From the NCBI RefSeq assembly GCF_000231055.2, contig NZ_CM001466.1:2074165-2138164 (forward strand): DNA of 64,000 nt, given 5' to 3'. The translations under genes and the position numbers were made by a program. The notes below the pieces were generated by a model. The model saw only the letters and a list, made by a program, of their open reading frames with translations. It was not told the DNA's origin and did no database searches. Positions 54,810-57,968 of this stretch are shown here, piece by piece; position 1 is the stretch's first letter; each line of letters begins with the position of its first letter. Origin of the DNA: Saccharomonospora azurea NA-128. Lineage in GTDB: Bacteria > Actinomycetota > Actinomycetes > Mycobacteriales > Pseudonocardiaceae.

Positions 54810-55736
54810 TCACTCGTCGCACACGCGGGCGCCCGGCACGGGCCCGTGGGCCACGCGGACGGTGCGACACACGCCCGCGCCCGCGAGCTCGGCGGCCACC
54901 TTGAGCGCCGCATCACCGTCGGTGCACAGGAACGCGCACGTCGGACCCGACCCCGAGACCACGCCGGCGAGCGCACCGGCCGACACCCCGGCCCGCAGAG
55001 TGCGGCGCAGGCCCGGCCGCAGCGACACGGCGGCGGCCTGCAGGTCGTTGCCGAGCAGCAGCGCGAGGCGGCGCGGGTCCCCGGAGGCGAGCGCCTCCAA
55101 CAGCGCCTCGGGTGGGCCGACCCGCGGCGGGTCCCCCGACTCCCGGAGGCGGTCCAGCTCGCCGTACACCTTGGGAGTCGACAAGCCTCGCTGGTCGAAC
55201 GCGAGCACCCAGTGGAACGTGTGCCGCGACAGCACGGGCACGAGTCGCTCCCCGCGACCGGTACCCAACGCCGTGCCCCCGTAGAGCGCGAAGGGCACGT
55301 CGCTGCCCAGGGTGGCGGCCACCTCCGCCAGCTCGTCGCGGTGCAGATCGAGTCCCCACAGGGTCGAGCACGCGAGCAGCGCGGCGGCGGCGTCCGCGCT
55401 GCCGCCCGCCATTCCGCCGGCCACCGGAATGCCTTTGCGGATCACCACACGCACGCGTTCCGCCTCGTCGGGCTTGCCGACGTGGTCGGCCAGGGCGCGC
55501 ACCGCCCGCATCGCGAGGTTGCCGCCGTCGGTGGGCACCAGCCGCGCGCCCTCCCCGGAGACCTCGATCCCGGGTTCCTGCGTGGCGTACACCGTGACCT
55601 CGTCGGTCAGCGACAACGCGTGGAACACCGTCGTGAGGTCGTGGTAGCCGTCCTCCCGCAGGTCACCGACGGACAAATGCAGGTTGATCTTCGACGGCAC
55701 GCGCACGGTGACGGGCGGCGGTACGACGGCAAGCAC
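54810..55736 (-). CDS. ispE: 4-diphosphocytidyl-2-C-methyl-D-erythritol kinase
   Basis: A 308-residue GHMP kinase of the MEP isoprenoid pathway. [20 protein letters not shown] at the start, the ATP loop [18 protein letters not shown] near 104-121 and [13 protein letters not shown] near the C-terminus are the three GHMP motifs. GTG 55736 is close to the family start. It lies 34 bp after the MetN-like gene and 22 bp before abcF, in the syntenic order ksgA, ispE. Confidence 0.93.
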
Positions 55737-55770: not shown

Positions 55771-56778
55771 TCAGGCAGCGACGTCGCGCAGCCCGAACAT
55801 CGGCGTGCTGAGGTGCGCGCCACGCTCCGCCATCCACGCCAGGGCGGCGTCCGCCCGCTGGCCCTCGACACCGAGGCGGAAGCGCGCGACCGGTGTGTCA
55901 CCGAACCGCGTCAGGCCACCGCCGATGGTGGTGAAGTCGACGTCGAAGCGCGCCGACGCCTCGGGCAGCAACGCGCCCACCGCGGCGAAGCCCACGAGGA
56001 TCACGTCCACGGCCCGGTCGTACGACGACAGCAGCGCCCTCGGGGTGTCGACCCGCGGCAACAGCGCCTCCGCGATGGGGCTGCCGGGCTTGCCCAGCAG
56101 GCTCAGGAGCGTGCCCGACTCGACGACGGTGCCCCGGTCGAGGAGCGCGACCTCGTCGCACAGCCGGCGGGCGATGTCGGCGTCGCGTGACGTGACGATC
56201 ACCGTGGCGCCGAGTTCGGACCGGGCCCGGTCGAGCACGGACAGCACGGCCCCCGACTCCTCGCTGCTCACGCCGTCCACCGGGTCGTCGGCCAGCAGCA
56301 CCGACGGCTCCGTGGCCAGGGCCCGGGCGATGGCCACGCGACGCTGCTGCCCCGGCGAGAGCTCCGACGGCAGCCGGGCCCCGGACCGGGAGAGACCGAT
56401 GACGTCGAGCAGCGTGCCGACGCGGCTCCGGCGGCGATCGGCTTCCACGCCCATCCGCTCCAGCGGTGCGGCGATGTTGCCCGCGACGGTCCGCTCGGGC
56501 CGCAGCGTCGGCTCCATCATCGCGACCTGCCGCTGGGCTCCCCACAGCTTGCGGCCCGCCAACCGGCTCGTGTCCATGCCGTCGTAGCGCACGGTGCCCC
56601 GGTCGGGCCGCTCCCGCAGTGCCACGCAGCGCGCCAGCGTCGTCTTGCCCGCCTCCTTCGGCCCCACGATGCCGAACAGCGACCCCGCGTTGACGACGAG
56701 GTTGACCTCCCGCAGCGCGACCACGGGGGAATGGGTGGAAGGGAACGACTTGCTGACGTTCTCGACAGTGATCACCAC
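55771..56778 (-). CDS. MetN-like ABC ATPase with degenerate catalytic motifs and C-terminal NIL-like domain
   Basis: A 335-residue protein of the methionine-importer ATPase type. Walker A is intact (GPKEAGKT, 39-46). Every other catalytic loop is altered: the Q-loop Gln is Glu-89 (VAMMEPTLRP), the signature is LSPGQ (140-144), the catalytic Glu after Walker B is Asp-165 (LLADDPVDG), and the switch His is Ser-197 (VIVTSRDAD). The C-terminal 80 residues (VILVGFAAVGALLP, FTTIGGGLTRFG) resemble the NIL/ACT methionine-binding domain. No permease or binding protein lies nearby. A SAM-type riboswitch precedes it. It may bind ATP and methionine as a regulator rather than transport; this is inference. 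Start GTG 56778 after GGAG. Confidence 0.8.
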   Translation of the reverse strand: MVITVENVSKSFPSTHSPVVALREVNLVVNAGSLFGIVGPKEAGKTTLARCVALRERPDRGTVRYDGMDTSRLAGRKLWGAQRQVAMMEPTLRPERTVAGNIAAPLERMGVEADRRRSRVGTLLDVIGLSRSGARLPSELSPGQQRRVAIARALATEPSVLLADDPVDGVSSEESGAVLSVLDRARSELGATVIVTSRDADIARRLCDEVALLDRGTVVESGTLLSLLGKPGSPIAEALLPRVDTPRALLSSYDRAVDVILVGFAAVGALLPEASARFDVDFTTIGGGLTRFGDTPVARFRLGVEGQRADAALAWMAERGAHLSTPMFGLRDVAA

Positions 56779-56967
56779 AGCTCCAGGCAGCTCAAAGTCG
56801 GGCGTCCGTACGGGGACGTCCTGAAGACAGACGGCAGAAGAAACCGAAACTCGACGAAGGAAAGGGCCTCAGCGAGACATCGTGTGGCTACAACAAGCAC
56901 ACACGGTGCGGCGGCCCTGGTCGACTACTCGGCGCTGCGTCAGGAGCGGCGTGCGATACACGGAGAT

Positions 56968-57058
56968 CCTCCATCGGTCCTGGCGTTAGCACCTTCCCCA
57001 GTGGGGCGGTTGCTGCGACGTCTCGGAGCCAGGTCTCTCGGTCGCTCGGGATGGATGC
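56968..57058 (-). promoter_or_regulatory. SAM riboswitch (SAM-I/IV clan) upstream of the MetN-like gene
   Basis: On the minus strand: P1 TCCATC/GATGGA (57055-57050 with 56975-56970), P2 GCGAC/GTCGC, the conserved GCAGCAACC, P3 CCCC-ACT-GGGG, then AAGGTGCTAACGCC, and a pseudoknot CCTGGC (P2 loop) with GCCAGG. These are core elements of SAM-binding riboswitches; a clear P4 hairpin is missing, which fits the SAM-IV or SAM-I/IV variants of actinobacteria. The aptamer lies 52 bp after ksgA. The remaining 190 nt to the GTG hold a CGTGTG/CACACG hairpin and no gene, and could be the expression platform. High SAM should lower expression. Confidence 0.8.
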
Positions 57059-57110: not shown

Positions 57111-57968
57111 TCACACTTTCGCCGCAGAGCGGGCCAGTTCGGCGAACTGCTCGACGGTGAGCCGTTCACCTCGGGTGGCCGGGTCGATACCGGCGGCGGT
57201 GAGCAGCGCGGCGGCGCGCTCCCCCGAGCCCGCCCAGGAGGCGAGGGCGGCACGGAGGGTCTTGCGGCGCTGGGCGAAGGCGGCGTCGACCAACGAGAAG
57301 ACGAGGTCGCGGTCGACTCCCTCGGGCGGAGCCGTGCGTTCGAACGCGACCAGCGAGGAGTCGACGTTGGGCACGGGCCAGAACACCGACCGGGACACGG
57401 CCGCGACCTTGCGCGCCCGCCCGTACCACGCGAGCTTCACGCTCGGAACCCCGTAGATGCGGCTGCCGGGCGCGGCGGCCATGCGGTCGGCCACCTCGGT
57501 CTGCACCATCACGAGGGCGTGCCGCAGCGAGGGCAGTTCGGCCAGCAGGTGCAGCACGACGGGCACCGCGACGTTGTACGGCAGGTTCGCCACGAGTGCC
57601 GTGGGTTCGGTGGGCAGCTCCTCGGCGCGGAGCCGCAGCGCGTCCCGTTCGAGCACGGTGAACCGCGAGGCGGCCTCAGGCGCGTGTTCGGCCACGGTCG
57701 TGGGCAGCCGCTCGGCCAGGACGGGATCGATCTCCACCGCCAGGACACGCGCCCCGGCGGCCAGCAGACCGAGGGTGAGGGAGCCGAGGCCCGGGCCGAC
57801 CTCCAGCACCGGCTCACCCGACCGCACGTCGGCGAGGTCCACGATGCGGCGCACGGTGTTGGCGTCGTGCACGAAGTTCTGGCCGAGCTTCTTCGTCGGC
57901 CGCACTCCCAGCTCGGTGGCCAACCGGCGGATCTCGGACGCTCCCAGCAGGCCCGGTGTCTCGGTCAC
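57111..57968 (-). CDS. ksgA: 16S rRNA (adenine1518/1519-N6)-dimethyltransferase
   Basis: A 285-residue RsmA/KsgA enzyme that dimethylates two adenines near the 3' end of 16S r[19 protein letters not shown] at the N-terminus, the SAM loop [15 protein letters not shown], acidic VLAVEIDP, and the catalytic motif [12 protein letters not shown] are all present; [11 protein letters not shown] is the later KsgA mark. It lies after rpfB and before the SAM riboswitch/MetN-like gene, in the conserved rpfB, ksgA, ispE order. Confidence 0.95.

Follow-up and report, generated by a model that had tools for sequence, protein, structure and literature searches.

A MetN-like protein with altered ATPase motifs, encoded behind a SAM riboswitch and a conserved leader ORF in Pseudonocardiaceae

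Within the window, by which we mean the whole stretch of 64,000 nucleotides analysed here, a gene for a MetN-like protein lies between ksgA and ispE and is preceded by a SAM (S-box) riboswitch and a short leader open reading frame (ORF) (Table 1). Both the riboswitch and the position inside a ksgA-ispE block had been proposed in an earlier reading made without database searches (hereafter the sequence-only reading), and both are borne out by the Rfam and NCBIfam matches. Translation of the MetN-like gene probably begins at the second of two GTG codons, which is preferred because relatives begin M-ITVEN, and ispE is possibly part of the same transcript. The genome itself comprises 4.76 Mb in one contig, and its nearest named relative, a Saccharomonospora, is 93% identical.

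Table 1. Coordinates of the genes and leader elements at the locus, numbered from the first letter of the window
Feature	Coordinates	Strand	Description
ispE	54810..55736	(-)	starts 34 nt after the MetN-like gene; NCBIfam match
Orphan MetN-like gene	55771..56778	(-)	335 aa; ABC ATPase at about residues 1-232, NIL at about 251-323
Leader ORF	56869..56961	(-)	30 codons plus stop, GTG start; between aptamer and MetN-like gene
P1 3′ strand	56968-56975	(-)	holds GGAGG (56968-56972), likely Shine-Dalgarno sequence of the leader ORF
SAM (S-box) riboswitch aptamer	56968..57057	(-)	RF00162, 62.4 bits (gathering score 44.4), model positions 1-108, complete
ksgA	57111..57968	(-)	upstream neighbour of the MetN-like gene; NCBIfam match

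By domain content and fold, the product of this gene belongs with MetN, the ATPase of the MetNIQ methionine importer (E. coli structures PDB 3TUI and 3DHW). Pfam ABC_tran and NIL both score over their cut-offs, which upholds the claim that a NIL-like C-terminal domain has been kept, and NIL is likewise present in 30 of 30 family members scanned, 28 of which lack a permease. An AlphaFold2 model of confident quality (mean pLDDT 90.8) finds E. coli MetN (3tui_D) as its top PDB match in Foldseek over the full length (TM 0.82, 339 columns, 32% identity). The top NCBIfam match is also MetN (TIGR02314), at 170.5 bits against a cut-off of 499.7; because a permease-bearing sister, L073 (270.2 bits), and the genome's own MetN (347.6 bits) miss this cut-off as well, it does not discriminate here, although the window protein differs from both in scoring lowest. 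The reading frame is intact and codon bias is normal, as previously stated, with a GC3 of 0.946 that falls within the range of six neighbouring genes (0.899-0.967). Identity as part of a defence system was considered and set aside; PADLOC returned two partial matches, mad3 (4.5e-16) and mad8 (4.1e-8).

The Q-loop is the loop through which such an ATPase contacts its permease; this role, like those of the signature, the catalytic Glu and the switch His, is general knowledge. The window protein keeps an intact Walker A motif (GPKEAGKTT), as had been noted, and departs from MetN at each of the other sites: the Q-loop reads VAMMEPTL, the signature LSPGQ, the Walker B region LLADDP and the H-loop TSRDAD, so that none of the Q-loop Gln, the LSGGQ signature, the catalytic Glu and the switch His is intact. 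The replacement of the first signature Gly by Pro and of the catalytic Glu by Asp agrees with what was first described. The two other assignments need revision. The Q-loop is indeed altered, but the Glu said to replace its Gln stands at residue 89, whereas the Gln column itself (90) holds Pro, and the exact pairing is ambiguous because the loop is two residues shorter than in relatives. The Ser said to stand in place of the switch His lies one column away from it, since alignment with relatives places Arg in the His column (198) and a Thr-to-Ser change one position earlier.

No metI or metQ gene adjoins the MetN-like gene, as the sequence-only reading had remarked, and the genome encodes a separate metQ-N-I operon (approximately 1145616-1148085) with intact ATPase motifs, at which an Rfam scan gave no match. 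A survey of 249 sampled Pseudonocardiaceae genomes at E<=1e-60 identified a homologue of the MetN-like protein in 205 and no match in 44; all 12 genomes of the window genus carry the gene, as do 41 of 46 sampled genera, those with a permease among them. The 66 loci that we fetched around matches to the protein comprise 64 primary loci and, in L077 and L109, second copies of the gene; with the window there are 65 primary loci, and counts over these exclude the second copies. In 61 of the 64 fetched primary loci the gene is preceded by ksgA and followed by ispE, and the three others are missing one flank (L069 and L106 have ispE alone, L108 has ksgA alone). The diverged second copies themselves (L077 719-1735 (+); L109 3998-5056 (+)) have no detected leader ORF, aptamer or metI/metQ, and the L077 copy retains the switch His with Asp for the catalytic Glu.

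Comparison of these loci reveals a close correspondence between the ATPase motifs and the presence of a permease. Genes resembling metI and metQ follow the MetN-like gene in 20 of the 65 primary loci and are absent beside it in 45, the window included; two loci (L108 and L157) lie at contig ends, where the absence is unproven from the locus, and the L108 genome is without MetI2 by search. For the one metI2/metQ2 pair scanned, the MetI subfamily match is below its cut-off and the MetQ/NlpA Pfam match is over it. All 20 permease-bearing genes have Q, G, E and H at positions 90, 142, 165 and 198, whereas the motifs are altered in 43 of the 45 genes lacking a permease. The two intact exceptions (L088 and L129) belong to the same genus as L133, its third sampled member, which still has metI2 and metQ2, and on this comparison they look like recent losses of the permease. 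Other recent orphans are partly altered, reading EPEH (L083), DDEA (L110) and QEEE (L071) at the four positions. In a second set of 80 named loci, the best 80 of 212 relatives, the permease-bearing genes are canonical in 16 of 16 cases and the others altered in 64 of 64; 19 of these loci are shared with the first set, and the two sets together hold 126 distinct loci. The family thus offers a graded series for a transporter motor becoming something else, from a complete importer through a recently orphaned but intact ATPase and partly altered forms to fully altered ones. The alignment of orthologues between ksgA and ispE and the dN/dS estimates that had been suggested as a check were thereby carried out, with motif loss tracking permease absence. 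What the sequence-only reading had missed was that sister genera carry a metN-metI-metQ operon at this very place, that losses have recurred, and that a leader ORF is conserved between riboswitch and gene.

The history of the locus was examined on two trees, both of them 'quick' builds. On a KsgA-IspE-TatD tree of 63 rows, the absence of the permease requires 5 changes, compared with a mean of 15.8 after shuffling and with none of 500 shuffles as low, and the starred branches of this tree force 3 changes. A gene tree rooted on canonical MetN, which carries a long-branch warning, places the permease-bearing genes basally and requires 4 changes; it unites most orphans in one clade, and their shared altered motifs may be drawing them together. 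We read this history as one of permease loss rather than regain, and a no-regain reading of the KsgA-IspE-TatD tree would give about 5 to 7 losses, depending on the position of the root.

Selection on the two parts of the protein was assessed with Nei-Gojobori dN/dS. Median values for the window genus (12 genomes, 66 pairs) are 0.25 for the ATPase domain (NBD), 0.13 for NIL, 0.20 for ksgA and 0.17 for ispE. The corresponding medians are 0.15, 0.17, 0.15 and 0.05 in orphan genus g27 (3 loci) and 0.22, 0.32, 0.19 and 0.11 in orphan genus g45 (7 loci); the NIL value of 0.32 in g45 shows that the strongest constraint does not fall on NIL in every genus. Mean pairwise identities for NBD and NIL are 0.82 and 0.71 among permease-bearing genes, 0.65 and 0.73 in the window's clade, and 0.73 and 0.72 in a second orphan clade of 13 loci. 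NIL is more similar than NBD in 226 of 276 pairs from the window's clade versus 11 of 190 permease-bearing pairs, and in 30 of 78 pairs of the 13-locus clade, where NIL is also fast. The ratio of NBD to NIL tree length is 0.55 with a permease and 1.04 without, or 0.73 and 1.02 after motif columns are removed from NBD; only this ratio was used, as the tree lengths rest on the gene-tree topology and on 40 orphan as against 20 permease genes. Columns conserved at 95% fall from 154 to 70 of 232 in NBD between the 20 permease genes and the 40 orphans, more steeply than in NIL (34 to 26 of 73). Taken from alignments and trees, these comparisons indicate, for the window's clade, a shift of constraint between NBD and NIL. 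No clear signal emerges at Asn295, a methionine-site residue of E. coli MetN, whose column holds Ala, Thr or Ser in 37 of the 40 orphans and Asn in just 6 of the 20 permease genes.

Individual residues of the ATPase have fared very differently. Among the 40 older orphans, the Walker A Lys is kept in 38 (L070 and L103 are orphans with Thr in its place), the Walker B Asp in 39, and the signature Leu, second Gly and Gln in 40, 39 and 39, respectively. By contrast, 39 have lost the Q-loop Gln and all 40 the first signature Gly and the switch His. Positions 90, 142 and 198 vary widely among orphans, a pattern expected under relaxed constraint. At residue 165, by comparison, the 40 older orphans have Asp in 34, Glu in 6 and no third residue. 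This sparing of an acid would not be expected under random drift, although shared descent lowers the weight of the observation, and a single inherited change preserved through a large clade may account for Asp165. Because five late orphans still have Glu, the change to Asp seems to be a late one. Random substitutions or stop codons among orthologues had been named beforehand as signs of decay: there are no stop codons inside the gene among the matches listed in the 249-genome survey, but columns 90, 142 and 198 are variable in orphans. By stop codons, frameshifts and neutral dN/dS the gene does not resemble a pseudogene, with median dN/dS of 0.13-0.25 in the window genus and 0.15-0.32 in g27 and g45. 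Given the low dN/dS, the ATP-binding residues kept in most orphans and a catalytic Glu that has changed to Asp only, simple decay of the orphan MetN is unlikely.

A MetI or MetQ partner was sought elsewhere in the genomes using the operon's own MetI2 (40 genomes), the window genome's canonical MetI and the MetQ family PF03180, a dedicated permease encoded at a distance having been raised at the outset as a possible objection. The search with canonical MetI covered 38 genomes of the 45 permease-less loci. A full MetI is encoded in 13 of these 38 genomes, whereas 25 have no MetI and no MetQ over cut-off; among the latter, 18 have a completeness of at least 97%. Four of the 25 (G196, G018, G031 and G044) show marginal MetI matches (24-32% identity, E 2.7e-10 to 9e-9), and G015 and G227 have MetQ matches below cut-off. 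MetI occurs in 6 of the 12 genomes of the window genus, and of the six without it, G024 is 100% complete and the other five 82-91%. In the window genome, a full MetI and MetQ are found only in the separate operon, with none cognate to the orphan gene. Because 25 of the 38 genomes have neither protein anywhere, partnership with a distant MetI is excluded as the general role. Together with the motif and permease comparison and the dN/dS values, these searches uphold the central part of the sequence-only reading, namely that a transporter ATPase has been cut loose from its transporter and kept under selection rather than simply decaying, its H-loop residue being the part that was wrong.

Each of the 46 scanned genomes with the MetN-like gene has a SAM aptamer just upstream of it, as judged from coordinates. 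Between aptamer and gene lies the leader ORF, which in the window encodes MYRTPLLTQRRVVDQGRRTVCACCSHTMSR and is found in 65 of 65 primary loci and 80 of 80 named loci, or all 126 distinct loci. A pattern search recovers it in 63 of the 65 primary loci but at neither of the second copies, and 1340 base-shuffled controls give 2 hits. The two primary loci that the pattern misses (L101 and L121) have Lys for Arg and were assigned by eye. The core consensus is LTxRRVVDxxRRTxxAC, and dN/dS is 0.14 over 58 distinct 17-codon cores. The last Cys codon of the core is UGU in all 65 primary and all 80 named loci, compared with 88 of 695 Cys codons (12.7%) in ksgA, ispE, the MetN-like gene and two neighbours that we have ourselves labelled rpf and tatD (67 loci), the loci being related and hence not independent trials. 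The peptide is single-copy in the window genome (E 1.9e-16, next match 0.15). Taken as a whole, we regard the observation as real, conserved and unusual.

The placement of the likely Shine-Dalgarno sequence within P1 suggests how aptamer and leader might be coupled. Across 145 rows (126 distinct loci), and with the two P1 strands delimited by our own definition, 7 or 8 of 8 P1 positions pair in 101 and 5 or 6 in 22, the P1 pattern being unmatched in a further 22, of which 14 are named Lentzea. This arrangement differs from the familiar S-box riboswitch in that, in most loci, the P1 3′ strand carries the likely Shine-Dalgarno sequence of a leader ORF and not that of the regulated gene. An intrinsic terminator was rejected as the expression platform, because the two pattern matches seen where the leader ORF ends, versus 0.4 expected, are unconserved in the alignment. 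A single-sequence fold of the leader region was no better than shuffles (z 0.10), and a consensus fold, in which P1 does not appear because several rows are cut short at the 5′ end, gave only helices of 2-3 pairs beyond the aptamer.

The leader core resembles that of NCBIfam NF042933, the Ms5788A family of actinobacterial Cys-rich leader peptides. It differs in that the window peptide scores 17.9 bits, below the family cut-off of 45; of five leader peptides searched, two match weakly (E 0.0018 and 0.0097) and three not at all, and the leaders described here stand behind a SAM aptamer and usually lack a run of Cys codons, with UGU invariably as the last core Cys codon. A mycobacterial cysteine-responsive attenuator has reportedly been the subject of a published study. 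A class-wide search for similar leaders gave matches in 27 of 296 genomes at E<=0.001, two of them in Pseudonocardiaceae, and 18 of the 19 match sites that were read gave a peptide. Seven ORF starts downstream of these were scanned, five of which have Pfam matches over cut-off (PALP, rhodanese, SDF symporter and DUF4395 twice), one has sub-threshold hydrolase matches and one has no match; the PALP enzyme is, on our reading, a cysteine synthase. A leader ORF ahead of a methionine importer operon also has a parallel in Streptomyces lividans, where metNIQ is preceded by metL, although the peptide is a different one and the part of that account available to us lists no SAM aptamer for the operon (PMC8079986). 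Within the collection searched, a literature search by title and abstract opening returned no account of the orphan protein or of a SAM-aptamer/leader-ORF tandem.

We consider the odds to be slightly in favour of a MetN that was orphaned repeatedly and today serves as a soluble pseudo-ATPase ligand switch, controlled by SAM and perhaps by cysteine. The comparison of loci shows descent from a SAM-riboswitch-controlled methionine-type ABC importer operon, metN2-metI2-metQ2, between ksgA and ispE, and the absence of the permease and binding-protein genes, which we read as loss, from several lineages including the window's. It also shows that the ATPase of these lineages lost the Q-loop Gln, first signature Gly and switch His and exchanged its catalytic Glu for Asp, while the ATP-binding residues, NIL, the riboswitch and the cysteine-type leader ORF were retained. 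The present protein would most likely be a soluble homodimer that binds ATP, hydrolyses it poorly and takes up a sulfur amino acid or related ligand on its NIL domain; such a switch, gated by nucleotide and ligand alike, would have another protein as its target. In E. coli, according to two reports, the activity of MetNI drops when L-methionine binds to the C2 domain (PMC8416018; PMC10710835). Expression would be expected when SAM is low, as SAM would close P1 and hide the Shine-Dalgarno sequence of the leader, reducing leader translation and downstream expression, and cysteine supply might act as a second input through the conserved UGU codon. The SAM riboswitch appears to gate a cysteine-type leader peptide, joining two branches of sulfur amino-acid supply, and conservation across many soil bacteria suggests that an old motor now does another job. 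The broader proposal of a new class of soluble pseudo-ABC switches is more tentative, and we place it somewhat short of even: it would hold that a MetN-type ATPase was freed probably at least three times to become an ATP-binding, sulfur-ligand-sensing regulator, expressed by way of a leader with two inputs, where the translation of a peptide that senses cysteine is itself under the control of a SAM aptamer. The MetQNI still encoded in the window genome, a possible interaction partner, counts against the switch reading, as do the variable residues at positions 90, 142 and 198, the faster NIL of the 13-locus clade and of g45, the drop in conserved NIL columns, the chance that Asp165 reflects shared descent, and the Thr in place of the Walker A Lys in L070 and L103.

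That MetQNI, with its intact motifs, also leaves room for the protein to be a transporter part after all, either pairing with a distant MetI or other permease or forming the degenerate half of a heterodimer with canonical MetN that throttles MetNI. The 13 permease-less genomes with a full MetI and the largely kept signature residues beyond the first Gly would fit such a role, which we nevertheless regard as quite unlikely, because the 25 genomes with neither partner include 6 of the 12 from the window genus, and because the Gln lost in nearly all older orphans belongs to the loop that contacts the permease. A somewhat different possibility is that the protein is a slowly decaying relic, drifting since the permease was lost and on its way to loss, with its frame still intact owing to short time or to polarity on ispE. 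The variable Q-loop, signature Gly and switch-His columns, the 44 family genomes with no match, the 34-nt distance to ispE in the window and a NIL dN/dS in g45 that exceeds those of the neighbouring genes all point in this direction. We think it unlikely, however, given dN/dS values well below 1 everywhere tested (with NIL below both ksgA and ispE in the window genus), the absence of stops among the matches listed, the retention of the gene throughout the window genus and in most sampled genera, permease-bearing ones included, and an aptamer and leader retained wherever scanned. Five loci (L075, L080, L086, L091 and L105) moreover keep the gene even though 2.2-2.3 kb separates it from ispE, and a frame kept solely to protect ispE was rejected on that ground. 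The two of these that were examined, from Prauserella shujinwangii (L086, 1741-3906) and Amycolatopsis sacchari (L091, 5068-7201), named through their copies L156 and L178, hold genes for an MFS transporter and a TetR regulator there by Pfam.

The intervening sequence at several loci also counts against the proposal that only the leader region matters, with the riboswitch and leader peptide controlling ispE, or the peptide itself acting, and the MetN-like ORF serving as a passive conduit. An ORF present at every locus with its own low dN/dS, and a short gap to ispE in the window, are in keeping with this proposal; the missense constraint on NIL in the window genus is not, and we judge it very unlikely. 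The soluble switch outlined above remains the reading we favour.

Several further observations concern SAM riboswitches in these and related genomes. At E<=0.01, with 150 of 244 candidates scored, the window genome has at least two RF00162 matches, one at the MetN-like locus and one at threonine synthase; the latter (L112 1627-1761 (-)) overlaps the threonine synthase start, with no leader ORF between. Genome G004 (genus g5) has six RF00162 matches, one of them below cut-off, compared with two in most relatives scanned. One genome that lacks the MetN-like gene at E<=1e-40 carries a SAM riboswitch (L134 5412-5501 (-)) shortly before a gene for a GNAT acetyltransferase. Elsewhere in the order, in a different family, a SAM-IV riboswitch (L137 2758-2873 (+)) precedes a metQ-metN-metI operon, a different SAM class at the same function.
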